Shown: positions 414 to 19,952 of the stretch, piece after piece | Numbering within the stretch: position 1 is the stretch's first letter | Layout of the letters: each line of letters begins with the position of its first letter | DNA from: a virus | Reading direction: 5' to 3' (one strand) | Length of the DNA stretch: 20,002 nt | IMG/VR virus record: IMGVR_UViG_3300018481_000092 | Span: 1-20,002 of that record | The notes under the pieces: model-generated | What the model was told of the DNA's origin: nothing | What the model saw: the letters and a program-made list of their open reading frames with translations, nothing else | The model's database searches: none | Translations under genes and position numbers: made by a program

Positions 414-421
414 TATTTATG
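414..421 (-). promoter_or_regulatory. Late-promoter-like motif CATAAATA upstream of the partial fibre gene
   Basis: The minus strand reads GCATAAATAGAC here. This is one base from the T4 late promoter -10 element TATAAATA and fits the relaxed form NATAAATA. It ends 36 bases before the GTG start of the downstream fibre gene. It contains the TAA stop codon (419-417) of the 484-residue gene. The position is right for a late promoter, but the motif is short and transcription has not been shown. Confidence 0.55.
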
Positions 422-1871
422 CTGTAGTAATTGCTAATCTAGATAGTCTGATTGTCAATGGAAAAGTAGTAGGAGTTAATCGCAGACGAAGTTGACCGCC
501 GGTTAAGTCGGTAGTTAAAGTACCTAAACTGTTATTTGTAGTTAAAATAGCATATTCTGTAGTTTGAGTAGACGAACCATCATGTACCGACATCAGTTTA
601 GACATTTGATATGAAGAAGTCGAAGCATCTTCAATTACTACAGTCCAATCTACACAACGATTACTCGTTGCAACCATAGTATCAACTGTCTGAACGTCAG
701 CATTTGCAGTTATTAACTTAGTAGCAATTGAATGGGCAAGTGCATTTATCGTAACCGTTTGAGTTGCAATTACTGGAGAATTTATTGTTGGTGTTACAAT
801 GCTAACATTGGCTACAAAAGTATTTGCTCTAACAGTAGCACCAAAGAAGTTATAACTATTTGCTGATCTATCAATGATACCAATCGTTTGACCAGCTGCA
901 GTTATAACAACTTGATTAGATCCAGTAACCGCTACAGATGAAGTTCCAGCCAAGATAGTTGAAATACCATCAGGTCGAGGAACGGTAGCACCATCAGGGA
1001 ATCTGAATGTATCTGCTGTAATGGTTCCATTGACCGTTATAGTAGATGAAGGATCCATTACGATATTACCAAAGGAAGCCTTCAATCCGGTCGTATCTAT
1101 AATGAAAACATTTGCGCCATTTGCACTGATTGCTACGTTACCGCTTGCAGTAAGTCTACCGGTAGTAAGTGAAGCAACCGTAGTATTTGGAAGGGTTACT
1201 GAACCAGAAGTGATAGTAAGAGTATTAACAGAAAGAGTGCTTGTTACCACCGCATTAGTAAATGCACTGTTTCCTGTAACATTCAATCTACCAGTAAGAG
1301 TAGAGTTTGCTGTAACATAAAGATTGGCACCAAAAATAGTAGTATTGGTTGCGCTAATAATAGCGGTGTTGGTGATAAATGAAGCAAGCGTAACAGAACC
1401 ATTTGCTCTGATAACGAGAGGACCCGTTTGAGTAAAATAGGTATTGCCGTTAAGATTTACCGAGGTAATGTTTGTAGATACGGCATTGATGTTTAATACT
1501 GGACCACTAAGAAGAGTATTGCCAGACGGATTGACTGTGATATTTGAAGGAACTAGAAAAACATTTGAAAAGAGAGTGTTAGAATAGACTACAAGTACGT
1601 TTGCTCCAGAAGGAGTAGTAAAAATAGCATTTGAAGAAATGATCAGAACATTGCTTGAAGAATTGTTTCCGCCTCGAATACTTCCGTTAGCAATCAGAGT
1701 ATTACCTAATAGATTGCCACGAACTTGTACGTTTCCATTAGTCAAAGATCCATCTGCGGTAGCATCTGCTGTTACTGTGTTAGCAGAAGTAATTTCCGTC
1801 ATCTGACGGAAGCGTTCGATCAATGTCGAGAAGCTTTGATTATTAGATACCGTAGAAATTTGTATAGCCAT
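417..1871 (-). CDS. Tail-fibre-like virion protein with repetitive shaft and C-terminal domain
   Basis: This 484-residue protein begins at ATG (1871-1869), preceded by a purine-rich AAGAAAGAAGA stretch and, further up, by a TATAAATA motif. Residues 1-30 (MAIQISTVSNNQSFSTLIERFRQM) look like a short helical attachment or trimerisation segment. Residues about 35-370 are rich in Asn, Thr, Ser, Val and Ile with many 'ANT', 'SNT' and 'GNT' units, a pattern of phage fibre shafts. The last 110 residues (375-484) look like a separate beta domain, containing SVHDGSSTQTTEYAIL and a closing GGQLRLRLTPT. Similar endings occur in virion structural proteins of T4-like marine phages, as I recall. No enzymatic motif is seen. 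It follows the radical SAM gene and precedes another fibre-like gene with the same composition. It is probably a distal tail or baseplate-attached fibre; its receptor cannot be guessed. Confidence 0.75.
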   Translation of the reverse strand: MAIQISTVSNNQSFSTLIERFRQMTEITSANTVTADATADGSLTNGNVQVRGNLLGNTLIANGSIRGGNNSSSNVLIISSNAIFTTPSGANVLVVYSNTLFSNVFLVPSNITVNPSGNTLLSGPVLNINAVSTNITSVNLNGNTYFTQTGPLVIRANGSVTLASFITNTAIISATNTTIFGANLYVTANSTLTGRLNVTGNSAFTNAVVTSTLSVNTLTITSGSVTLPNTTVASLTTGRLTASGNVAISANGANVFIIDTTGLKASFGNIVMDPSSTITVNGTITADTFRFPDGATVPRPDGISTILAGTSSVAVTGSNQVVITAAGQTIGIIDRSANSYNFFGATVRANTFVANVSIVTPTINSPVIATQTVTINALAHSIATKLITANADVQTVDTMVATSNRCVDWTVVIEDASTSSYQMSKLMSVHDGSSTQTTEYAILTTNNSLGTLTTDLTGGQLRLRLTPTTFPLTIRLSRLAITTA

Positions 1872-1895: not shown

Positions 1896-1903
1896 TATTT
1901 ATA
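1896..1903 (-). promoter_or_regulatory. Exact T4-type late promoter motif TATAAATA
   Basis: The minus strand reads GTATAAATAAAATAG, an exact match to the T4 late promoter -10 consensus TATAAATA. The motif ends 24 bases before the ATG of the 484-residue fibre gene. It contains the TAA stop (1901-1899) of the radical SAM gene. Late promoters of this type need no -35 box; they are read with a gp55-like sigma factor and a sliding clamp, which would be encoded elsewhere in the genome. Of the four such motifs in the window, this is the best match. Confidence 0.68.
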
Positions 1904-3275
1904 CGGCCAATTTGGTTTCAACGGTTCTGGTTTTAGGAACGATAGACTGATCATTTAGGGATCCCCAAATATCTTGACGTTCCTCTGGCAAATGCGATGC
2001 ATTAATTCGATATGGAACATATCCTCCAGTAATCAGTTCAAAAGCAACAGCAAAATAAGGAAGATGGTCATTGTATGAATTATCACAAGATTTGTCCCAC
2101 AGATCATCTTCAAGATACATACAGGCACCCTTACATGCCTGAAGCATCGGACATTTTGGACAGTTTTTTCGAAGAGACCAATGGGTAGATGTGGTAAGTT
2201 TAATGTCTTCCATCTTGGAGACATGTCCAATTCTATGGGATTTGCCATTTGGTGCAATTGCAACTGCAGATGTATTATGACAGGTCAGAACATTTCCGTT
2301 AAGATCTACTGCCATCGTATCAGGTCTATCCATATTGCATTTTTGCATTAGAGTAGATGCAGGACGATGGCTTGAAATTGCATCTATCCATTCTTTGATT
2401 CTTTGTTTAGTAATCAAAAAATTCATAGTCAGAGATTCTCTAGTCTGTTCCATAGTAAGACGTCTGAATCCCAGCTGTTCTGCCTTACCATTAATGGCAT
2501 TTGCAGCACCACCGGCATCATAAGTGTCGATAAATCCGCCTTCGCCGATACTAAAATCATTTGTACCTAGGAAATCAGCAAAAAACTTCTGGATTGCAGC
2601 ACGATCCATGTTTTCACGATGGACCATAGCATTGATAGACATTCGATCTTTACCAAGACGTTTCCAAAGATCGCGAATGTTTGCAGCCTGTACTGGATTA
2701 TCAAATGGATCTGGACCTCTTACTATCTGTCCAGGACCATCGTGTGACATGCCAATGCTAAATTTCATTGTGTCGAGAAACTCATTGATTTCCGGTGTCA
2801 ACAAAGAACCATTGGTTACCATACCAAATTTAACCCCAGGAAATTTTTCACGAAGTGCAGTTGCAAGTGGTTTGAGTGTCTTCCAATATACCAGAGGTTC
2901 ACCGCCCCAAAACTGAAACTTTCTCGGCACATTCTTCAACCAGAGATCTAAATTCTTCATGAATTTAACTACTGCTTTTGGATTACCATTTTCAGCATGA
3001 GGAACGAAACGCTGTGAACAATATTCGCAACCATAGTTACAGGAAAGACCCATTTGAATTTTAATGTCTTGAATGTTAGTACTGTTCTTACCAAGCGGAT
3101 TCTTTGGGTCCGTGATAAGTGCCGTAGTCCATTCAATTTCTTTTTTAGACATTGGATCAATAATATGCGCTCCCTCAGAATTTTTAAGTTCTGAAGTCAT
3201 GTTGTCATAATAAAATTTAGCAATCCTAGGTCCTTTTCCAGGTATAGGCTTTGCTGCATGTATTTCAAAAATCAT
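1899..3275 (-). CDS. Radical SAM/SPASM-domain enzyme encoded in the tail operon
   Basis: This 458-residue protein carries the complete radical SAM signature C79xxxC83xxC86, which binds the [4Fe-4S] cluster that cleaves S-adenosylmethionine. GGEP at 124-127 (SAM binding) and TNG at 154-156 follow as expected in the barrel. The C-terminal third fits the SPASM pattern exactly: C313-x13-G-x4-C332, then C372-x2-C375-x5-C381-x3-C385, then C397. That predicts two auxiliary Fe-S clusters, as in anaerobic sulfatase-maturing enzymes, PqqE and thioether-forming RiPP enzymes. Family members usually modify a peptide or protein. The first 75 residues are unassigned and could bind substrate. The ATG overlaps the stop of the 75-residue gene (ATGA), the ribosome site is weak, and no promoter precedes it, so it should be made together with the tail proteins. 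The substrate is not known; the Cys-rich tract of the 2046-residue tail protein is a candidate. The family call is very secure, the target is inference. Confidence 0.95.
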   Translation of the reverse strand: MIFEIHAAKPIPGKGPRIAKFYYDNMTSELKNSEGAHIIDPMSKKEIEWTTALITDPKNPLGKNSTNIQDIKIQMGLSCNYGCEYCSQRFVPHAENGNPKAVVKFMKNLDLWLKNVPRKFQFWGGEPLVYWKTLKPLATALREKFPGVKFGMVTNGSLLTPEINEFLDTMKFSIGMSHDGPGQIVRGPDPFDNPVQAANIRDLWKRLGKDRMSINAMVHRENMDRAAIQKFFADFLGTNDFSIGEGGFIDTYDAGGAANAINGKAEQLGFRRLTMEQTRESLTMNFLITKQRIKEWIDAISSHRPASTLMQKCNMDRPDTMAVDLNGNVLTCHNTSAVAIAPNGKSHRIGHVSKMEDIKLTTSTHWSLRKNCPKCPMLQACKGACMYLEDDLWDKSCDNSYNDHLPYFAVAFELITGGYVPYRINASHLPEERQDIWGSLNDQSIVPKTRTVETKLAV

Positions 3276-3499
3276 TTAAGTTTTTCCATAAGTTGTGCTA
3301 ATAAATCTTTAATGTCAGATAGTTCCTTCTTGATAACTACTTGCTCTGCAGCAATGTGTTGTTGTTCTTCAAGCGCTTTCAGTTTCATATTTCTTGATGC
3401 TTTATATTGTTGCAAGCTAGATGCATCCGTGACGAGAATAGCTTTGTTACTCTCGTCTCTTAATAGTGTTTTCTCATCTTTGATTTTGACTAATTTCAT
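3272..3499 (-). CDS. Small coiled-coil phage protein
   Basis: This 75-residue protein starts at ATG (3499-3497), which shares one base with the TAA stop of the giant tail gene (TAATG). Its own TGA overlaps the ATG of the radical SAM gene (ATGA). No strong ribosome site is visible, so re-initiation from the upstream gene is likely. Residues 1-30 (MKLVKIKDEKTLLRDESNKAILVTDASSL) resemble small proteins found among tail genes of T4-like phages, which open with a short 'KAI..TD' segment. Residues about 40-75 form a charged helix with hydrophobic spacing (IKKELSDIKDLLAQLMEKL), predicted to be a coiled coil. Its role is unknown: a small virion component, an assembly chaperone, or an adaptor between its neighbours are all possible. 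The tight position on both sides argues that the gene is real. Confidence 0.8.
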   Translation of the reverse strand: MKLVKIKDEKTLLRDESNKAILVTDASSLQQYKASRNMKLKALEEQQHIAAEQVVIKKELSDIKDLLAQLMEKLK

Positions 3500-6400
3500 T
3501 AGATTTGTAGTGCTATTGCTCTGACATCCTGTAGTCTAGGTACTAGATGAGATCCTTCAGACATTAGAACAACCTTAACAGCAAATGCTTTATACGAATT
3601 ATAAATGATGCCTGTTGGGCTCGTATATGAAACAATGCTATTGACATTTGCAGAATCACGCCATGCTGAATTATCTCCAGGATTAGCTGGAACTGTTGGA
3701 AGATCATATTGAAATTCAATAAAATCTTGAAGATTTGTTTTAGATGAAACGAGCGTAGTTTTAGTTGTTAGCGGTGTCCATGCTTTTGAAGTGAAAGCAT
3801 CAGTATCTGCAATGTTCTGAAGTCTAGCATAAACATACATTGAAGTTCCTGCAGGCAAATAAGCACCAACATAAACTCTTAGATCTTCTGCATCCTGACC
3901 ATCAGCGAGAATTACAGCTTTAGAAATATACTTAACAATACCCGTACCAAAATTGGTCTTTTCAGAATCATAGATTGAAGTTCCCGACTCATTATTTACG
4001 ATGTTATAGATAGTCAACATTCCAAGTTTGATAGTATCAATTGCGGGCGAAGAACGCTCAATACCTGAAGTAAATTGTGCATACATCTTAAGTGATTTGT
4101 CACCACCTAGATTAATAATTTCATTAGTTCTAGACATGACTACGCGTTCACGATCATGGAAACTTTGTTCTGTTGCAAAGTTAAGCGCAAGATCAGAAGG
4201 ATCTTTAACATAACCAAGTGTAGTATTTGCAGTACCACGCAGACTGAAAGTCAATGAAGTAGGCGGAGGAATAGATACTGCAAGTTTAGGCATAACTGTA
4301 TTGTATGGCATATCCATAATTGAAACAATATTTGCAGAAGCATTAGAAGTCGCGCCAATTACTTTAGTATTTGCAGAGAGATAATAATTTACATCTGAGG
4401 TAGATGCATTAAGAATAAGCGTATTTGCTGCCTGATAAACTGCATTGACTCTACCAGTCAACAAACCATTCTTTCTAAGATGGCCAATGCCGCAATCTGG
4501 ATCTGTAAATGCAGGTACAGTATTGATAATAATAGCAGTAGCATTTACTACTGACTGGACGTTTGCAGTAAAGGAAACAGTATTAGTATTAGAAGTAATG
4601 TAAATTTTAGAATTTGCTTCAAAGGTAGTGCTGTTTGCAACACCGACGCCCCCGCCGATAATGACGGTAGTGTTTCCAGCAACTACAGAAACATTGTTTG
4701 CATAGAATTCCCCATTGGATAGGTATGCAGTTTCTCCAGTTTCAAAGGCACCGAGATAATTGTTATAAAGAATATATTCAGCATCATCATTAGTAAAACA
4801 TGCTCGGGAATCAAGTTCAGTAAAGGTCAGGCGATAAATCGCCATCTTCATATCTTCCTGCTGATATGCAGTCCAACCAGAATCTACCGATGAAGTAAAG
4901 AATTTACCAAGGAACGAATTATCAAATGTTTTTGCCCCCGTGGTAACATCCGGGCTACCACCGAGAGCAGCAGTCCATAGAGCGTAATTCGGATTATAAC
5001 CGTCCGCACGAACAACAACACAATATTCAGTTCGAGTCGATAAAAATAGCGGAGCATCAAAAACAACCGTTGTTGGAAGACTTGCATTTTCAGAAACTGT
5101 AACTTCAGCAGAGGTTAAATGCTTCTGACCGAATGGAACAATCTTCGTTGAAGGATAACCGTTTTCCATTTCTCTAATATAAACGGTGCAACCAAGATTT
5201 GGATCTTTACGTTCAAAATAAATGTCAATAGCAGAGACGTAAATGCCTCCGATAGATTGAGCTCTGAAGGTTTCTTCTGGCATTCTCCAAGATTGAGCGC
5301 AAGGTGAACCACCACCGCCGCCACCGTCACCACCATCACCGCAGGCACAAGCGCAAGCGCAGTCACAATTACAATCGGCTACTGGTTCAACTTGTGGTAC
5401 GCCGTTTACTATCGTGTAAGTTCTGATAGTAGAAGTTGGATTTGGTGATGTACTGGATGAAACAATAGCAGTAGTATCAGTAATCGTAGCAGAATAATTC
5501 TGTGTATCAGTAGTGTTTAGACCAATGTTATTCTTTGCATATGTTAAATTCGTACCGAAGAATGTTGATGTAGCAGATGATAACAGAATAGTATTATCAG
5601 TAACCAGATTATCAATATCAAGAACGCGAAACTTACGTTCGCCCGTTCTAAATGTTCCACGTGGAATGTTAAACGAGCCATATAGTGATCCAGAAGCGTC
5701 TGAAACCAACGGCCCGCCAACTGGAAAAACTGTCGGATTATTTGGAAGTATTTGGCGGCAATACTCCGTGATTGGCGTTTCATCGAAATATGTCCACATC
5801 CTCTGGTTCGGCTTAATGCCATGTGCTTCAAAAAGAACCTGTTGAGGTCTAATGAACGGCTGAAGTGCTACGTCGGTAACATAGGAACCAAGTTGATATG
5901 ATTGACTTGAAGAAGTAGTTGCAGTTGCCTGCCCTTCTCTTTGTAGATTTGAAGTCGTGGTAGTAGTTGTAGTACCGCCACCAAAAATGTAATCATTCTC
6001 AATGATAGAAATAGCATTAGGATTATAAATGCCAGTCTGTGCATAATACTGATCAATTGTTAGTGCAGCAGTACCAGATAAGGTACCTGATGGACTATAT
6101 CCGCCAGAAGATGATACTGAAGTACTAGAGCTAGTTTCTCTCCAAGTTCCCCACTGTGTAGACCAACCAAGTTGAGGTGAATTTGCAACCTGTGCTTGTG
6201 TATAAACATAATTGCTATGTGATGAAAGATTTACAACTACGTCTGGATTAATGCTTACATCAGGATGATAGTCGCCTTCTGGTCTAAGGGTAAGAGTACC
6301 AGCCCAACGGTATGAAACGTCCTGAGATGGTGAGCGAAGTTGTGTAGCAAAATATTGAAATAGATATGGTGCAGTAACCCGTTCATTTTTCAGAAGAATA

Positions 6401-9400
6401 AGACGCCCATTAGTAGAAACTACGACTGAATTTGAAGGAACAGAATTAGCAAGTTGTAGATTAATAAGTTCTTGTGTGAAGATTGGACGAGCTTCAGTAG
6501 TGTCAGAATCAATAGCAATGTTATATTGTGGATTTATCGTGTCACCAATTGAATGGTCATTAAACGGATCTACAAGAATACCATTCTTAAATCTGTTCAG
6601 ATCTGTTGTTGATGGAATAAGAAGATTCTTTGTTGCCTGTTCAAGGGCATTAAGAACCGTGTAATATTCTACGACTTGAAGACGCTGATCAATGCTTCCA
6701 ATATCATGCATCGTATAACGACGGTTTTTCATGTAATTGAAAGTGATAACCGAAGCATAAGAACCAGAGACGCGCACGTCATCCATAGTCAAAGATGGAT
6801 ATGGTGAAATACTTGCAAGTGCAAGATCAATACCGTTTACAACAGATGGTGCAGGAACAGGAGATTCTGAAGGAGTTCCTTCGATGATAAGAAGAGCACC
6901 CTTTGTATCCATACCAATACGATCTTGTCGACCAAGATAATACTGAAGATCGGTCTCAAATGAGGCATCGAGTGCAGGAATATATGCCGCAGAAGTATTG
7001 AGGGTTAATGTGTTAGCAGGATTGATTGACGCAGCAGCTGCTGTGGTTGCATATGCTGCAGTATTTGTTGCATACAATCTGAAGTCGATAGAATTTCTAT
7101 ATGAGAATACTTTACCATCTGATTTAGATTTATATGTTGGAATATATTGCGTGAAGATAGTATTTGCAGTAACACCAGTGTCATCTACAGGATAAGATTC
7201 CACAGAGAAGAATCCAACACCGGATGATACGTCTGGTTTGAATACCGCAAGTTCTACCAACAATCTATCTGCAGAAAGCAATGGAGATTTTGGAGTGATC
7301 TTTGCCAGACCATAATACATGTCAGTCTGACCAGAGTCAAAATTGAAAGATGATTTTACTTCTGGATTAGTATTTGCATATGTAGAACCTTTCCAGATAT
7401 TCTTAACAGCAAAAATATCAGGAAAACCAAGGCAATATGGACCTATAACATTTGAAGTACAATCAATCTTCACGAATACAGAAGTGAGCAGTTTCTTAGA
7501 TGCAGGAACAGCTGCTGTTCTGCGGACATTGTAATAGATAGTACCATAGAATGGAGCAGTGAATACTTTATTGAGTGCAAAGGTTGCCGTATTTGCTGGC
7601 GTTCCAGAGATAGTAATAGTCTGTCCGCCCTGTGTTGAAACAGGAATAACCTGACCCTGTACATAAGTCTGCCAATAAGCAGAGTTTGTATAGGTATTAG
7701 AAAACGGAGTAGAAATGGTAAGCGTTGTAGGAGTTACTGCTGTAATTCTACGAGTCGCAAAGTCAATAGTATTACCAACTGTAATACAGTCACCGACATT
7801 AAGACTAGCACCGGTAACAAAGTTGTTTACCTGACCTACAGTAAATGTGACGCTAGTACCTGTAGTTTGTACTCGTCCCGCAAGATTAGCAGTGTTGATC
7901 AGTGAGTTAGCAACAACGATGAAGTCGCGTTCAGATACAGAATCCAGAACACCAATACCGTAAGTGAACTTATTAACGCCACCGACACCTGAAGATGGAA
8001 CCGAAAGAATGCCTACGCCGGTATTGGAGAATGCGATATTTGAAGAAGTTCTAAAATCAAATTGAGTAACGACGGTGTTTGCTGAACTCTTAAGGTTTTT
8101 AACTGCAGATGCAGCATCATTTGTCAACGGATAGATAAGGCGCTTTAGAGTGTTATCATAAAGAACAGCAGCGCCGTTTTCTAGTACACAATCACCGAAT
8201 CCCTTTTGACCAGCTGTAATAGTATAAAGTGATTTAATGTTTTCAAAAGATTGACCAGAGTTCATAACAACGTCAAATAGATAAACTCTAAATTTGCCGG
8301 TTGGAGTAGCACCGGCATCGGAGTCAAATTCTACCGCAAGAAGTTTTGCAGTACCGATTTCAGCACCAGGTGCTGCAAGTGCATCTATAGAATTACCTAT
8401 AGATGAAACGGTAGAAATAGCTTGAGCAGTTGCAGAACGAAGTGAAACGGTAGCTCCTGTAGTAATACTCCAATGTCCTGCAAATTCTGTGCAATAGACG
8501 AAGTTACCCATTGTGATGGTAGTAACTTGACTTTCAAGGTATCGAATATCGGTACCCTTACGAAGTTTGTTTACGAGTTTACCTACCGTTTCAACACGAT
8601 AACCATGAATATAAGCAAGACCTGGATCAACTTCTAATCTTACATTTTGAGTATCTACTGAACCGTTGGCAAGATAACGGGTAAGGGTTCGCATATTGAA
8701 TGGTGAAATAACATAGTTGCCCGATTCTTCATCGGTACGTCGGGCAAGTTGTGCACCCAGAGTAGCATAGTTTGGATCGGTGTTGATAATCGTGGGATAA
8801 CCCTCTACGAAATTTACGAGAGGGAAGAATGAATTTGTAGTATTTGAGAAATTAGTATTTTGTACTTTAAGAACAGGAGTTAACTTAAGACGATGTGCAC
8901 CAGGAGCAGCATAGTTTGGAGAACCTGCAGCATTGTCAAGCAGTGATGGATCGGCTTCTGGGGTTACTAGAGTTTCGATAAGATCGAAACCAACGGAAAT
9001 ACCGTCTGGGAATCCTGAATACTTAGAGATAATCAGTGACTGGGGTTCAACACCGACAAAGAATCCCTGAGAGAAAATAGTTCCATCAGTTACGTTAGTA
9101 GATACAGAGAATCCACGGAATTTTGTGTTTCCGGTATTAATAGTATTTGCCGTGGTCAACTGACCAATGATACTATTAGATGAAGTTTTCAGTGTAAGTA
9201 CTTGATCTGTATCAAAAAATCGAGTTACATTATCGTTTGCGGTAGTCAGATAGTTAATATAGAGCGTATTTAGATCTGGTGCTGCAGGAAGTGCACCAGC
9301 AGAAGCATCAACGATATGTGCTCTAATACCATTCGATGACTCAACATAACTTCCGATGAAGTTGTCGATAGTAAAGGTTGAACCGTTAGCATAGGTATCA

Positions 9401-9639
9401 AGAATTTTGATGTATTGAAGATTAGTAGAGAATGACAGTTCACACTTTTCTACTACAGAACCGTCCGTGAAGATGTGACGACCAAATTTTTCAATCTGAT
9501 CCTGTAAGATTGTTTGACTTCCAGTAAGTTCCTGAACCTGAACTGGAACTCCTGCACGATATTCGACACGATGAAAATGATTATTTGCCTTAAAATTATC
9601 AAAATAAGGAGGTCTGGATAAGTCAATCTTCGTAGTCAA
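3499..9639 (-). CDS. Giant DUF4815-type tail/baseplate protein with Cys-rich tract
   Basis: This 2046-residue protein starts at TTG (9639-9637), with AAAGGA 8 bases upstream and an in-frame stop just before. The opening TKIDLSRPPYFDNF, then YRAGVPVQVQELTGSQTILQDQI at about residues 27-50, matches the start of phage DUF4815 proteins, so TTG is convincing. Residues about 590-660 hold a beta module (GDCITVGNTI, ITAVTPTTLTIS) of a kind also present in its gp7- and gp8-like neighbours. A Ser/Thr/Gly linker with a seven-threonine run precedes a conserved segment at about 1250-1300 (YVTDVALQPFIRPQQV, then FDETPITEYC). Residues 1423-1447 are the Cys-rich tract. From 1446 a domain (PCAQSW, DIYFERKDPNLGCTVYIREM) resembles the 'DPLAQTF' domain of T4-like virion proteins. 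No catalytic site is visible. It probably forms a peripheral baseplate or fibre-connecting structure. It lies 17 bases after the gp8-like gene. Confidence 0.88.
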   Translation of the reverse strand: MTTKIDLSRPPYFDNFKANNHFHRVEYRAGVPVQVQELTGSQTILQDQIEKFGRHIFTDGSVVEKCELSFSTNLQYIKILDTYANGSTFTIDNFIGSYVESSNGIRAHIVDASAGALPAAPDLNTLYINYLTTANDNVTRFFDTDQVLTLKTSSNSIIGQLTTANTINTGNTKFRGFSVSTNVTDGTIFSQGFFVGVEPQSLIISKYSGFPDGISVGFDLIETLVTPEADPSLLDNAAGSPNYAAPGAHRLKLTPVLKVQNTNFSNTTNSFFPLVNFVEGYPTIINTDPNYATLGAQLARRTDEESGNYVISPFNMRTLTRYLANGSVDTQNVRLEVDPGLAYIHGYRVETVGKLVNKLRKGTDIRYLESQVTTITMGNFVYCTEFAGHWSITTGATVSLRSATAQAISTVSSIGNSIDALAAPGAEIGTAKLLAVEFDSDAGATPTGKFRVYLFDVVMNSGQSFENIKSLYTITAGQKGFGDCVLENGAAVLYDNTLKRLIYPLTNDAASAVKNLKSSANTVVTQFDFRTSSNIAFSNTGVGILSVPSSGVGGVNKFTYGIGVLDSVSERDFIVVANSLINTANLAGRVQTTGTSVTFTVGQVNNFVTGASLNVGDCITVGNTIDFATRRITAVTPTTLTISTPFSNTYTNSAYWQTYVQGQVIPVSTQGGQTITISGTPANTATFALNKVFTAPFYGTIYYNVRRTAAVPASKKLLTSVFVKIDCTSNVIGPYCLGFPDIFAVKNIWKGSTYANTNPEVKSSFNFDSGQTDMYYGLAKITPKSPLLSADRLLVELAVFKPDVSSGVGFFSVESYPVDDTGVTANTIFTQYIPTYKSKSDGKVFSYRNSIDFRLYATNTAAYATTAAAASINPANTLTLNTSAAYIPALDASFETDLQYYLGRQDRIGMDTKGALLIIEGTPSESPVPAPSVVNGIDLALASISPYPSLTMDDVRVSGSYASVITFNYMKNRRYTMHDIGSIDQRLQVVEYYTVLNALEQATKNLLIPSTTDLNRFKNGILVDPFNDHSIGDTINPQYNIAIDSDTTEARPIFTQELINLQLANSVPSNSVVVSTNGRLILLKNERVTAPYLFQYFATQLRSPSQDVSYRWAGTLTLRPEGDYHPDVSINPDVVVNLSSHSNYVYTQAQVANSPQLGWSTQWGTWRETSSSTSVSSSGGYSPSGTLSGTAALTIDQYYAQTGIYNPNAISIIENDYIFGGGTTTTTTTSNLQREGQATATTSSSQSYQLGSYVTDVALQPFIRPQQVLFEAHGIKPNQRMWTYFDETPITEYCRQILPNNPTVFPVGGPLVSDASGSLYGSFNIPRGTFRTGERKFRVLDIDNLVTDNTILLSSATSTFFGTNLTYAKNNIGLNTTDTQNYSATITDTTAIVSSSTSPNPTSTIRTYTIVNGVPQVEPVADCNCDCACACACGDGGDGGGGGGSPCAQSWRMPEETFRAQSIGGIYVSAIDIYFERKDPNLGCTVYIREMENGYPSTKIVPFGQKHLTSAEVTVSENASLPTTVVFDAPLFLSTRTEYCVVVRADGYNPNYALWTAALGGSPDVTTGAKTFDNSFLGKFFTSSVDSGWTAYQQEDMKMAIYRLTFTELDSRACFTNDDAEYILYNNYLGAFETGETAYLSNGEFYANNVSVVAGNTTVIIGGGVGVANSTTFEANSKIYITSNTNTVSFTANVQSVVNATAIIINTVPAFTDPDCGIGHLRKNGLLTGRVNAVYQAANTLILNASTSDVNYYLSANTKVIGATSNASANIVSIMDMPYNTVMPKLAVSIPPPTSLTFSLRGTANTTLGYVKDPSDLALNFATEQSFHDRERVVMSRTNEIINLGGDKSLKMYAQFTSGIERSSPAIDTIKLGMLTIYNIVNNESGTSIYDSEKTNFGTGIVKYISKAVILADGQDAEDLRVYVGAYLPAGTSMYVYARLQNIADTDAFTSKAWTPLTTKTTLVSSKTNLQDFIEFQYDLPTVPANPGDNSAWRDSANVNSIVSYTSPTGIIYNSYKAFAVKVVLMSEGSHLVPRLQDVRAIALQI
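5299..5373 (-). other. Alternating Cys-X-Cys tract in the giant tail protein
   Basis: This segment encodes residues 1423-1447 of the 2046-residue protein. Six cysteines alternate with Asn, Asp or Ala (C1423 N C D C A C A C A C1433). A Gly/Asp linker ending in six glycines follows, then Ser-Pro-C1447. The other roughly eleven cysteines of this protein are scattered singly, so the cluster stands out. It sits at the joint between the Thr/Ser-rich middle and the conserved 'DPLAQTF'-like domain, where C1447 takes the Leu position. It could be a metal site, a disulfide staple between chains of a trimer, or a substrate for the downstream radical SAM enzyme. The sequence is certain, the role is not. 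Confidence 0.85.
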
Positions 9640-9656: not shown

Positions 9657-12600
9657 TTAAAACTTAAGAATTAATTTTGCTGTTTCTTTTGAAACAGCAG
9701 ATTTAGCAAATGGTGAGAAGTTTTCAACATATATTACTTCGCCTGAGTTCTTAACAAGATCTGGATAATTCAAAGTATTAGCAAAAGCGCATTTTCCAGC
9801 GGCACCAGAGGTATTTCCTGTTATAATATTTTGTCCGATCTGGAATTTACCTTTTATGGCATGAAGTTTAAGAACCGGATAGACAGAAGATACCGTAGCA
9901 CCCACGTTAAAGTTATTTATGATTGTATCTGAGGTGTTTATAGCACCATTGACGTTAGTTATCTTAAGATAGCTCGAATTTGCCATCAAAATGGTCGCAG
10001 TAGCCCCAGTATTGTTATCCGTTAATGTCTCGCCGAATGCAAATAGCCCGTTTGCTGAAACGATGGCAAGATCCTTATGAGTAGTAAGATCAAAGATTCT
10101 AGCCTTAGCTGCAGAAGTTTCCTGAGTAACGAACTCATTATTGATATAAGGAATGTTATTGGATGAAAGCGTCAAACGGACAGTCTGATTGAAATACTTA
10201 CCATAATTGCTTCCAATGTTGTTATAACCATTTGCTATAGCAATGCCGCTTACTGTTGCATGAGCGTTAGTAGTAGGATCATTGATTTCTTGACCTATAG
10301 CAAATCTGCCTATTGCTTTGGTAAGTTTGATAGTATTTGCATTAATTATCTGTTCAAGAACCCCAGTAGCATTAGTAGTTTCTTGTATGATAGGTTGGTT
10401 ATTGGACAGGATTACGAAGTCTGTAGTTTCAACAATCCTACAATTGGCAGTTTCACCGGAAGTTATGCCAAAAATTGAATCTCCAGCACCGTTTGCAGTA
10501 AAGTCTCCAGTAGCCGATTTTAGTTCAAGATAAGAAGAATTAGAGAATACGACAATACCTGCAGAATTTGAAGATGGTTGATAAACTATTTCGCCAGCAT
10601 CGAATGCAGATGATCTGTTAGAAATAATCATTTTATTGTTGTTTATGTTAGTAAGTGTGAGAATCACGTTATCGTATTCTGGATTCTTTAAGATGCCCAG
10701 TCTTCTATAGTTACCAGAAGATTCTAGAGCATAAGAATCATTAACATAATTGTCAAATTTTGTAGAAATACAGAGAAAACGTGCGCCCAAATCAAGTAGG
10801 GTATTTGCACCATGACCGTCGATTGGACCGATGATTGGAGTAATAAGAGCATTTGAACCAAAAAGTGAATTGGCGATCAATGATGCAGTAGCATAAGTGT
10901 AACCTTCGCCTCCAGAGATCATGTTGACAGAAGCAATACCATATGCAGAATATGCCGAAGTATTTACGGTACAGTATGCAGAAGCCCCTGAACCATCACC
11001 TTCGATTAAAACTCTAGGACCAACTTTGTATTGTGTCAATTGGTTTGGAATAGAATGTGAAGCGATAACAGTAAGATTGCCTGTGATTTCATCACCATAG
11101 AAATTAGCAATATATGCTTCTTGACCAGAGAATAATGATCTACTATCAGATTTAATAGTTATGCTAGGAAATGAAAGTATGGATACGATGTTAGATTTCT
11201 GACTAGAAGAACCGCCTTTAATATAAAATGTATTAGAGAAAGTGCCAGATACATCTGAAAGAATAAGAGTTGATGAATTTGAGAATGCTACAAAACCATT
11301 TGCACCCTGTTCAATGTTGCTTTGATCTACCATGGTTACTGCTTCACCAGGAATATATGTAGCGTCGACGATAGAATTATTAGTATAAGTAAGAGTGATG
11401 CCTGAGAAGTTAGTATGTGTTATGATGCCAGAATTTACTCTTACGGTAATAGATGAAGGTGAAAACGCATTAGGTACTTTAAAATGAGTAGTAGAAGAAA
11501 GAGTATTACTAAAATTAGTACTACATGTTAACACTGTAGTATTAACTACATTTTCTACACGGCGCAATTGACTATTTGGATTAGGACCTACTCGAATATA
11601 ATCACCAGTAATATATCCGTTTGCAAGATCTGTGAAATTAGTACCTATTCCTAATACTCGATTGTTACCAGTAACAATAGAAGCGGTTCCAGGCTTTGGT
11701 GTACCGGTAGAAATGGTATTATATATAGGAAGATCTAAAGAAAACGGGGTAACGAATTGCGTTCGTTGAGTACTCAGAATTGATGAGTTTGAAGTTAGAA
11801 CCTCTGCTACAATGCCAGAATCTGTCTGTGCAATTGTATCACCAATATCAAAATAACCGACTTTGTACAATATAGAAACTAAATCATATTGTTGGAATAA
11901 TGTTTGATCTACCGCAATATCACCAGTTTTATTAGCAATCTGTGCAGTAATATATGCATCAAAAGTTTCATCGACATAGGCTAATCTGTTAAGACCATCA
12001 TAGAATCTAATGTTTCTAAGTTGATTAGCTCCTGGACCGGCATACAAATAAATTGCGGAATTGGTATAAAAATTGTCTATGGAAGAAGCATCGGATGATA
12101 ATTCTACAACTGAAGTGTTGACATAATTTGCCAAAAATCCATCTGCAACTGCTAGATAATTGAATCCGCTTTGATCTACTTTGATATAATCGAGTGAACC
12201 TGGAGATGCAGCAACTTCTACAGAATTGTTTGGGAGAACCACAAGAAAAGCATTGGAAGAAAAGCGCGTCATAGATGTTGCATCTATGTTATACATAAAT
12301 TTCCAGATATAATTATCAGATGTAGAAAACACGCCAGTGGTAGAGGTCAAAGTAGGTTTGATGAGTGAAGGACCACCGTCATTGTTGTAGATACACTTAT
12401 AGATATTGTTTTCATCCGTGAATACATAAAAGTTATATTCATCAAAGAGGGTACTATTGCGTTGATTATATGCAGTATAGACAGTATTTGCTGTCCAATT
12501 GGTTCGTGGAATAGTGGGTTTCACGGACGTGGTATCAATGATTTTCCCATAGACAATATCATTGAAAATGCTTTGCTCATAGTCTAAAATAGAATTATTA

Positions 12601-17718: not shown

Positions 17719-18594
17719 TTATTTCTTGAAAATGTAGTGGTCAGGCGTCAACTGTTGACCACCCTCAGTAACATGAACCTTCGGAGCATCCAATTTAATA
17801 AGACCATCAGTAATCTCAATCTTAGTGCCACCGACTTCTAATACTATCTTAGAATCTGCCTTGATAGTTATAGTACCTTTCGAAGTCATTAAAATATCGG
17901 CGTCAGCTTCAATTTTCGTATCAGATTTAGAATATAACCACGCCTTTTCATCTGTATGGATCTTATAGTCTTTTTGATAGACCTGTGATGCTTTGCCATC
18001 AATGACAAATTTAGCATCCTCACCTTCTGTAACACGGATGTTAGTTCCTTTGACCATGTCAACACGATCACCGCGCTGCTGTGAAAAGGAATTGCCGTCC
18101 GCAGATCCTACAGAATCTCCTTTAGTTAATGAATGTTTATCCTTTGTAGAACCTTCAGTAATGGTTTCTTTGCTGACAGAGATATTCTGACCGCCAGTAG
18201 CAGAATAGGTTCCACCTCCGGTTGTAGATGCTCTTTCACCCTTGACCTGATTTCGTTCTGCGCCAGCCCTAGAATCTACGGTACCTTCGACTGAAGAGGT
18301 CATTCCCTTTCCGACAGACTGATGATATTGTCCTGAAGATCTTACGGAATATCTGCCCGATACCGATGAAAATTCCATATGGGAACCGTCTTTACCGGAA
18401 ATAGACATGACACCGCCGCCGGGGTCAGTGTTATATTGTTTCCCTCCGCCTGAAGTATCCTGTGCAGAAGAAGGAGTATCATCGAATACCATTCGATGAT
18501 TGACTCCCTGCCAGAGTACTGCAGCATATGGGTATCGTGGACCTGCATTAGATTGTGGAGTAGCTATTGCTTCATCTTTAATTTTTTTAGCCAC
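17719..18594 (-). CDS. Central spike protein, gp5 C-terminal-like beta-helix
   Basis: These 291 residues have no lysozyme domain and no clear full OB-fold. Residues 20-45 (RYPYAAVLWQGVNHRMVFDDTP) resemble the 'G..I.FDDTPG' entry segment of gp5/VgrG spikes. Residues about 60-275 are short repeating beta strands rich in Gly, Ser, Thr and Lys, ending in the regular alternation of ITIKADSKIVLEVGGTKIEI and GLIKLDAPKVHV, as in the trimeric beta-helix needle of T4 gp5. It should form the tail needle below the hub; I see no metal-binding HxH tip motif. The start is GTG (18594-18592), overlapping the upstream stop by one base (TAGTG), with AAGGA 9 bases before. Hub, OB-fold and any cell-wall enzyme must be separate genes, probably beyond the right edge. 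The spike call is good; exact family membership is less certain. Confidence 0.82.
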   Translation of the reverse strand: MAKKIKDEAIATPQSNAGPRYPYAAVLWQGVNHRMVFDDTPSSAQDTSGGGKQYNTDPGGGVMSISGKDGSHMEFSSVSGRYSVRSSGQYHQSVGKGMTSSVEGTVDSRAGAERNQVKGERASTTGGGTYSATGGQNISVSKETITEGSTKDKHSLTKGDSVGSADGNSFSQQRGDRVDMVKGTNIRVTEGEDAKFVIDGKASQVYQKDYKIHTDEKAWLYSKSDTKIEADADILMTSKGTITIKADSKIVLEVGGTKIEITDGLIKLDAPKVHVTEGGQQLTPDHYIFKK

Positions 18595-19952
18595 TACCAG
18601 GATTCCTTAACTCTATCACCGTCTGGTAGACCTTCAGTCGGAATTATAATCCTTTTCGGACCAACCGCTCCACCAGCATCAGCCGGCGTAGTATCTGCAC
18701 CAGGTTGAGTTGCTTTAGAATCTGTAGATTCTCCTCCCGGTTGAGATCCTGCTGGTTTAGATTCTTCGGGTTTTTCTTCTTCTTTTGGAGCTGCAGGACT
18801 TTCAGTTTTATCACCGCCTTCTACAGTTTTTTCTAAAGCCTTTCGTTTTTCTTCGACAATTGCTTGCTTTTTTGTAAATTTCTTTAATGCTTCTTGTATT
18901 TTTCCAGCATCTGTAATGGCTTTTTTAATGTAGTCCGTCATAGTCTTATCAATCATACTTCCAATCTGTGGTATGGAACTAGAAGATCCACCTGGAGATC
19001 CGAGTACTTTTGAAGCAGAACAACTTGAAATAGCATCAATCAATTTTTGAAGAAGGGCAGTTAATTTGTCTAGAGTCAAAGTCTTATCAATCAACATTCC
19101 ATGCAATGTAGGATAATATGCATCTACTGCTTGCTTGATACATTTTTCAGTATCATTGAGTTGCCAAACGCGATTGAGCATTTCAACAAGAATATCAGCA
19201 GCATGGGACAACTGACCTTTACAGTATTGTCCGTATCGATGTGCACCATGTACTTCAATATCACGAATGGTGTTAATCAAGGTTGTTGCTGATAAATTAA
19301 TTAATCCTTTATCTATGCCCTGAAAATTAAGAGATGTGATTATACGCGGATATGCATTCATTATATCAGAAGTAGTATATGTAGTAAAATAATTGAAAGG
19401 TAAATGATTGAAAGTAACAAGCAACAAATTTAATCGAGTGAACAGCATTTGAATTTGATCTACACCGAGATGTGAAAGATCTAATGCTTCAAGTGTCTGT
19501 AATATGTCAGTAATATTATCCATTCGACGAATGAATTCTTCATGGTCATCGAATGCAGAAATAGGAGCAGTACTAGTTTCAATTAATTCGCATATATCTT
19601 TCACATATGTCATAGTATTAAGTTCTTCTACTAAAAGTAGAATTGCACTCTGTGCAGATGATGTAGCAACTTCATGGGATGTTCCAAATGATCCAGTCGG
19701 TACCGTTGGTACATTTGAAGATTTCTGACTAAGTAATGATTTAAATTGTGACATTACTCCTTGGATAGATCCAAGAGCAGAGGTTGCTTGTTTTAACATT
19801 GCCTGCATACCTTGGGCACCCATGCCCGCAGCACCTGAAACTGCCTGTTCTATATCTCGAAGTTTTTTAAGACCATCGGCACCATTGGGAAGAACGCCCT
19901 TGATAACATCCGACTTTTCAATTTTTTGTGCAAGGTCTAATAAACTGGTCAT
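18594..19952 (-). CDS. Unrecognised helical protein upstream of the spike gene
   Basis: I do not recognise this 452-residue protein. Residues 1-75 are helical with a small-residue stretch (AVSGAAGMGAQGMQAM). Residues about 100-310 look like a compact alpha-helical domain rich in Leu, Ile and Thr. Residues 320-370 hold a Gly/Ser turn and then a charged helix (KKFTKKQAIVEEKRKALEK). Residues about 379-440 are rich in Pro, Glu, Ser, Thr and Gly and should be disordered, and the last 14 residues (PTEGLPDGDRVKES region) form a charged tail. There are no transmembrane segments, signal peptide or catalytic motifs that I can identify. ATG (19952-19950) is the only reasonable start, because a stop lies six codons upstream in frame, though no good ribosome site is visible. 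Its one-base overlap with the spike gene suggests a hub, spike-associated or tail-assembly role. Function remains unknown. Confidence 0.85.
   Translation of the reverse strand: MTSLLDLAQKIEKSDVIKGVLPNGADGLKKLRDIEQAVSGAAGMGAQGMQAMLKQATSALGSIQGVMSQFKSLLSQKSSNVPTVPTGSFGTSHEVATSSAQSAILLLVEELNTMTYVKDICELIETSTAPISAFDDHEEFIRRMDNITDILQTLEALDLSHLGVDQIQMLFTRLNLLLVTFNHLPFNYFTTYTTSDIMNAYPRIITSLNFQGIDKGLINLSATTLINTIRDIEVHGAHRYGQYCKGQLSHAADILVEMLNRVWQLNDTEKCIKQAVDAYYPTLHGMLIDKTLTLDKLTALLQKLIDAISSCSASKVLGSPGGSSSSIPQIGSMIDKTMTDYIKKAITDAGKIQEALKKFTKKQAIVEEKRKALEKTVEGGDKTESPAAPKEEEKPEESKPAGSQPGGESTDSKATQPGADTTPADAGGAVGPKRIIIPTEGLPDGDRVKESW
18604..18608 (-). promoter_or_regulatory. Ribosome binding site AAGGA for the GTG-started spike gene
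   Basis: AAGGA lies 9 bases upstream of GTG at 18594-18592, inside the last codons of the preceding gene. It supports GTG, joined to the upstream stop as TAGTG, as the spike start. Confidence 0.6.

Follow-up and report, generated by a model that had tools for sequence, protein, structure and literature searches.

Why would a phage encode a complete radical SAM/SPASM enzyme among the genes of its tail? The enzyme in question lies in a 20,002-base IMG/VR virus fragment of bacteriophage origin, the whole of which we refer to as the window. Tail fibers determine which bacterium a phage infects, and we know of no established theme of virion proteins being modified by radical enzymes. Radical SAM genes as such are carried by T4-like marine phages, with 12 in one genome (PMC5332604), and the host-recognition cluster of pelagimyophages holds radical SAM cassettes for which no substrate is given (PMC7029224). 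A previous sequence-only reading of the window knew of no established role for such an enzyme in tail assembly; this stands for the substrate but not for the tail-region setting, which had already been mentioned (PMC7029224).

The minus strand of the window carries a T4-like baseplate and fiber operon, in which genes for wedge proteins are followed by a DUF4815 gene, a 75-aa gene, the radical SAM gene, and a fiber-like gene (Table 1). The sequence-only reading had placed the enzyme in a tail operon, with an ATG that overlaps the preceding gene and no promoter of its own. All three points were borne out: baseplate wedge, DUF4815, and PHROG 473 genes precede the enzyme, its ATG overlaps the stop codon of the 75-aa gene (aaATGAttt), indicating translational coupling, and the region holds no more promoter-like matches than shuffled sequence does (32 versus 32.8). 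The strand, which that reading did not give, is minus. Encoded just upstream of the enzyme, likewise on the minus strand, is a tail protein that carries a tract of alternating cysteines with the pattern N-C-[N/D/A]-C-[N/D/A]-C, and this pattern recurs in tail and fiber proteins upstream of related enzymes. The fiber-like gene downstream of the enzyme had zero matches in Pfam and PHROG scans, and a similar gene is also found 3′ of the enzyme in locus L003. Together with the frame at positions 1 to 411 of the window, it encodes fiber-like proteins with short Asn/Ser/Thr/Val-rich repeats. In L003, the stretch 3′ of the fiber region (positions 16180-21349) holds a run of glycosyltransferase-like genes as well as a further radical SAM-like ORF.

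Table 1. Features of the window and of comparison loci (locus handles precede the coordinates where these are not from the window)
Feature	Position	Strand	Basis
Baseplate wedge proteins	17251-9657	-	ORFs and PHROG
DUF4815/PHROG 358 tail protein, 2046 aa, tract carrier	3499..9639	-	Pfam PF16075 (2.6e-47); PHROG 358
Tract CNCDCACACAC in the DUF4815 protein, proposed modification site	5341..5373	-	Inter-domain linker, 6 Cys
75-aa virion structural protein	3272..3499	-	PHROG 473; stop overlaps radical SAM start
Radical SAM/SPASM enzyme, 458 aa, proposed tail-protein maturase	1899..3275	-	Pfam, PHROG, NCBIfam, AlphaFold2 model
CxxxCxxC radical SAM cluster motif, residues 79-86	3018..3041	-	Invariant in 73 relatives
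GGEP motif, residues 124-127	2895..2906	-	Translation and relatives' alignment
Seven-Cys SPASM segment, C313 to C397	2085..2339	-	TIGR04085; alignment of 73 relatives
Fiber-like repetitive Asn/Ser/Thr/Val-rich protein, downstream of enzyme	417..1871	-	ORF translation
Second tandem enzyme	L125:5255-6526, L230:8339-9826, L036:5434-6456, L053:2333-3523, L121, L229		

The reading frame is a complete radical SAM/SPASM enzyme, as had been recognized from the letters, with coordinates, motifs, and spacing all exact. Its SPASM cysteines are spaced as C313-x13-G-x4-C332, C372-x2-C375-x5-C381-x3-C385, and C397, and ten cysteines, including all seven of the SPASM segment, are invariant in an alignment of 73 relatives. 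The protein belongs to the radical SAM superfamily by its Pfam score (Radical_SAM PF04055; 42 bits versus a cutoff of 29.5) and to the SPASM subgroup by NCBIfam (TIGR04085; 33.3 versus 27 bits), and it matches PHROG 1802, "radical SAM domain-containing protein" (3.6e-66). In the NCBIfam scan, it fell far under the cutoff of every named maturase, the best of which was PapB (NF047865; 65.6 versus 340 bits), and far under every metabolic cutoff. Identity as the SCIFF maturase CteB (TIGR03974; 31.5 versus 425 bits) or as an anaerobic sulfatase-maturating enzyme (anSME) (TIGR03942; 42.7 versus 349.45 bits) was rejected on these scores.

An AlphaFold2 model of the enzyme (pLDDT, 94.7; pTM, 0.92) forms a (beta/alpha) barrel. 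Both anSME and CteB had been named as structures worth comparing, and CteB, a peptide maturase that forms thioethers, proved to be the nearest solved fold (Z = 23.5 over 317 residues), followed by ChlB, anSME (Z = 20), and TigE. The CteB alignment begins at residue 2, and the N terminus of the model has three strands without following helices, whereas an RRE is a winged helix of three strands and three helices; no full RRE was recognized in the model and no leader peptide in the operon. The auxiliary cluster of CteB has an open site, whereas those of anSME, SuiB, and PqqE do not (reviewed in PMC8326336). With seven SPASM cysteines across the 73 aligned relatives instead of the eight of anSME, the window enzyme could resemble CteB in having an open auxiliary site, unless the invariant D316 fills it: this residue may serve as a ligand of the auxiliary cluster, and the model contains no cluster.

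The resemblance to anSME raises the alternative that tract cysteines are oxidized to formylglycine or another oxidized residue, giving a reactive tip. Structure and sequence both match anSME well, and the homologue in Achromobacter phage JWF is annotated as "anaerobic sulfatase-maturating enzyme." However, the position behind the second SPASM Cys, held in anSME by a catalytic Asp, is occupied by Gln or His in 73/73 relatives, and an eighth SPASM Cys is not found; where anSME has CGMNGTC and CDFY, this family has CxMD, without the Cys, and C[Q/H]N. The score lies far under the anSME cutoff, as given above, and the tract is without CxPxR, the sulfatase motif. Nor is there a sulfatase near the enzyme gene. 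Taken together, these differences make anSME-like oxidation improbable.

We searched for relatives of the enzyme and examined their neighborhoods. Close relatives among 50,697 phage records were found only in Achromobacter phages JWF and 2-1 (45% identity). A profile scan of IMG/VR returned 440 relatives, 80 of which were kept, and a profile scan of bacterial genomes returned 61, mostly in prophage-like tail operons. The recurring gene order, seen across 193 loci, is a gpJ-like protein, two small tail genes, a fiber, a 282-aa gene, one or more 2OG-Fe(II) oxygenases, and the radical SAM gene. Homologues occupy tail-fiber operons of unrelated phages (T4-like myoviruses, siphophage JWF, and gpJ-type prophages). 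The sequence-only reading had named homologues lying mainly beside metabolic genes as the observation that would count against it; their location in tail-fiber operons instead supports its idea of an enzyme dedicated to virion proteins, whose modification we infer. It had also asked whether the neighbors are always DUF4815 or fiber genes. Fiber operons are indeed the rule, but a DUF4815-specific partnership was rejected as a general one, as the enzyme is present in only 3/80 DUF4815 loci and most enzyme loci use other carriers.

These neighborhoods also bear on the possibility that the enzyme is a host-directed auxiliary or counterdefense enzyme of the viperin, QueE, or cofactor type that sits in a tail operon by coincidence. 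Phages do carry such radical SAM genes, and viperins appear lower in the list of structural matches. Coincidence is hard to reconcile with the recurrence of the gene in tail operons of unrelated phages together with the tract; moreover, the SPASM domain with two cluster sites is unlike viperin, and the scores are far under the NCBIfam metabolic cutoffs. We regard a host-directed role as extremely improbable.

Families of 2OG-Fe(II) oxygenases were present in 109/144 enzyme loci of at least 9 kb but in only 6/124 controls (5/56 and 1/68); within the 20,002-base window, none is visible. In part of the phages, the main enzyme gene is preceded immediately 5′ by a tandem gene for another radical SAM/SPASM enzyme of divergent sequence (Table 1). 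In Bacteriovorax-like genomes, the surroundings of a distant relative of the enzyme resemble an ordinary RiPP cluster. They comprise a peptide of 53 to 64 aa, which in one case (64 aa) ends in ACACACACGGPCY, a PqqD-like partner, another radical SAM enzyme, and also glycosyltransferases and oxygenases. This setting supports a peptide-modifying ancestry of the enzyme. Such a cluster, bacterial and apparently undescribed, was seen in L260 (positions 9923-11930; also in L254, L243, L245, L246, L252, and L255). Its 53- to 64-aa precursor carries SFGSLKPLTAxQIIxLL... (SAGACACACACGGPCY in L260), its PqqD-like protein has 107 aa, and it holds two radical SAM enzymes along with glycosyltransferases and 2OG oxygenases; the precursor and the PqqD-like protein had no NCBIfam match.

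We then characterized the tract itself. Among 147 unique tracts, the residues between the cysteines are N (401), A (168), and D (106), with every other residue at 14 or fewer, and N precedes the first Cys in 126. The tract lies no more than 9 aa from the C terminus in 119/147 cases, and three settings can be distinguished: the C-terminal end, a position before a Hint domain, and an inter-domain linker, as in the DUF4815 protein of the window. The codons of the window tract are mixed (TGT/TGC, AAT, GAC, and GCT/GCC), which excludes a low-complexity or simple DNA repeat, and chance was rejected as an origin because the expectation from composition is ∼1e-9 per protein. When the tract was masked before comparison, the carriers fell into at least eight unrelated families. 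The sequence-only reading had seen the DUF4815 neighbor, but neither the tract nor this variety of carriers.

Phage carriers are mostly structural proteins of 95 to 2050 aa. In L004, the tract NCNCNCDCACACDCACNC is the end of a 95-aa protein, and in L134, CNCDCACDCACDCACDCACDCAC is close to the end of a 120-aa frame; the carriers in L007 and L134 have no NCBIfam name, and the cluster-2 fiber matches PHROG tail fiber families. In L056 (positions 5549-6508) and L127 (positions 5030-5990), three consecutive small proteins with terminal tracts of their own (CNCNCACACNC, CNCNCACACNC, and CNCACACACACNC) are followed by one enzyme gene. Most tracts that lie 100 to 260 residues from the protein end adjoin a Hint domain. 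In JWF gp028 (Pfam Hom_end_hint, 3e-12), the tract NCNCDCNCNCSC directly precedes this domain, and the enzyme, gp030, is encoded two genes later; other carriers score near or just under the cutoff. A Hint (intein-like) domain exactly after the Cys tract was seen in L002 (positions 17793-19244; JWF gp028), L247, L248, L250, L180, and L225. Judged from domain order, a Hint domain behind the tract suggests self-cleavage of the tail fiber, which would leave the tract as a new C terminus.

In the window, the tract forms a low-confidence, predicted-disordered linker between two beta domains (the model of the DUF4815 segment has a pLDDT of 63.5 overall, and only the linker disorder is used here). It sits at an insertion whose counterpart in enzyme-free relatives is short or dissimilar, and among DUF4815 loci the tract insertion is confined to enzyme-bearing or truncated contigs. 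One such DUF4815 protein, in L368, is 71% identical over the aligned segment and shares the tract, and its contig stops too early for the enzyme to be seen. As the window tract is internal and short (six Cys), the window phage may have further substrates beyond the contig.

A cysteine-rich tip could alternatively bind a metal or an Fe-S cluster, with the alternating cysteines of three fiber chains as ligands and the enzyme altering another part of the protein or helping to load the tip. HxH motifs coordinate metal in this manner at the tips of T4 gp37 and P2 gpV, alternation would place all cysteines on one face of a beta strand, and the C-terminal position at fibers fits. A metal-binding tip would nevertheless leave unexplained the tie of the tract to a radical SAM/SPASM enzyme and oxygenases, the restriction of the intervening residues to N, D, and A, and the tract within a short bacterial peptide, and we consider it unlikely.

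How firmly are enzyme and tract linked? Pattern matches in noncoding or antisense frames were excluded from all tract counts. Among the 41 enzyme loci for which 8 kb or more of upstream sequence was available, 38 had a same-strand C.C.C.C tract. Shortened or degenerate versions occur in the other three: NCDC..C at the same DUF4815 place (L003), NCNCACK at the C terminus (L160), and CNCAGGACDC (L177). Starting from the tract, the enzyme was found in 57/120 loci, each a short stretch around the tract, and in 16/28 tract-only contigs a radical SAM match lay farther away (12 strong and 4 weak). Four contigs with C-terminal tracts (G005, G015, G025, and G026, the contigs of L029, L087, L059, and L124) have only distant radical SAM genes (40 to 100 bits), so the tract may be served by other subfamilies or may function independently. 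In 80 neck-protein control loci from related T4-like phages, the enzyme was absent (0/80), and none of the three C.C.C.C matches was C terminal. In a sample for which loci were picked by a neighboring tail gene, with neither enzyme nor tract as a criterion, 20 loci had both, 14 had neither, and none was discordant within 9 kb (P = 7e-10 by Fisher's test, not corrected for phage relatedness, which inflates the significance). Among the 14 is L513, from the same contig as L035, where a tract lies farther along near the contig end, and the true count may be 13 plus one cut-off case.

The pairing of enzyme and tract is, at the level of sequence, strong. It could also arise by hitchhiking, if the two share a mobile tail cassette but have no effect on one another: they lie 0.05 to 5 kb apart, and the phages are related in blocks. 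This reading sits poorly with at least eight unrelated carriers, three tract positions, and enzyme identities down to ∼33%. In L463, furthermore, the fiber N terminus is kept (65% identical over 82 aa) while the C terminus is replaced, and tract and enzyme are lost together although the fiber scaffold remains. Hitchhiking thus appears very unlikely.

The reading that we favor, and hold to be very probable on these genomic patterns, is that the enzyme is a RiPP-type maturase that would be made with the tail and act on the (N/D/A)-C tracts of tail and fiber proteins from the same operon. The enzyme would bind the flexible tract and modify it during tail assembly, and the modified tract would be present in virions. 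By analogy, there is roughly an even chance that the chemistry joins Cys through a thioether to the alpha or beta carbon of an N, D, or A residue. A deoxyadenosyl radical would abstract hydrogen from one of these carbons; the thioether would then be closed by the thiolate of a Cys bound to the auxiliary cluster, in the manner proposed for CteB. Related enzymes make Cys-Asn, Cys-Thr, and Cys-Asp links, including QhpD on a protein (PMC8326336). The presence of Ala among the intervening residues is compatible with alpha-carbon chemistry but not with Asn/Asp-specific beta chemistry. The resulting chain of small rings would stiffen the tip or linker, the 2OG-Fe(II) oxygenases may hydroxylate Asn or Asp of the same tract, and the likely effect would be a tip or hinge that is rigid and withstands both proteases and reduction.

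More broadly, and with somewhat better than even confidence, we propose a RiPP-like tail-tip pathway of phages in which a radical SAM/SPASM enzyme and 2OG-Fe(II) oxygenases, with or without a Hint domain, would produce multiply cross-linked C-terminal or linker caps in myoviruses, siphoviruses, and prophages. Such a pathway would have been overlooked because both the tract and its link to the enzyme are absent from every family library searched. The open-access journal literature that we searched describes neither the tract nor its pairing with the enzyme, and no role in virions. The enzyme superfamily and RiPP logic are known; the substrate class and the setting would be new. The results point to a little-noticed viral way to harden or arm the tips of tail fibers, and they add the two-enzyme combination of a radical SAM enzyme and a 2OG oxygenase to phage biology. 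Because the tract follows a simple rule, N-C-[N/D/A]-C..., modification of virions becomes directly testable, for example, in JWF or in prophages that can be induced from Limnohabitans and roseobacters in culture, and the tract offers a compact scaffold for multiply cross-linked protein ends.

Among known systems, the maturases of SCIFF and ranthipeptides (CteB and PapB) are the closest, with the best fold match, a Cys-rich substrate, and a seven-Cys SPASM domain that possibly leaves an open site. They differ in acting on a leader-core peptide, whereas the substrate here would be the end or a linker of a phage structural protein with alternating cysteines; no complete RRE was seen in the model, and the scores against both families are low, as noted above. 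QhpD, the maturase of quinohemoprotein amine dehydrogenase, is likewise a SPASM enzyme with a protein substrate, forming Cys-Asp/Glu thioethers within a protein and not a secreted peptide (PMC8326336), but its partner and substrate are different and the window enzyme scores 50.5 bits versus its cutoff of 453. The His-Xaa-Ser system (HxsB/HxsC), going by its NCBIfam family names, also combines radical SAM maturases with a tandem alternating-residue substrate; it uses His/Ser instead of Cys, has two paired enzymes, and is bacterial (41.4 versus 370 bits). anSME shares the radical SAM and SPASM fold and a Cys substrate but has an eighth SPASM cysteine and, behind the second one, an Asp, neither of which is present here. 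Finally, gp030 of JWF and its counterpart in phage 2-1 are members of the same family, PHROG 1802, although JWF, unlike the window phage, is a siphophage whose tract precedes a Hint domain. This family is annotated without a role, and our results give its annotators a likely substrate.
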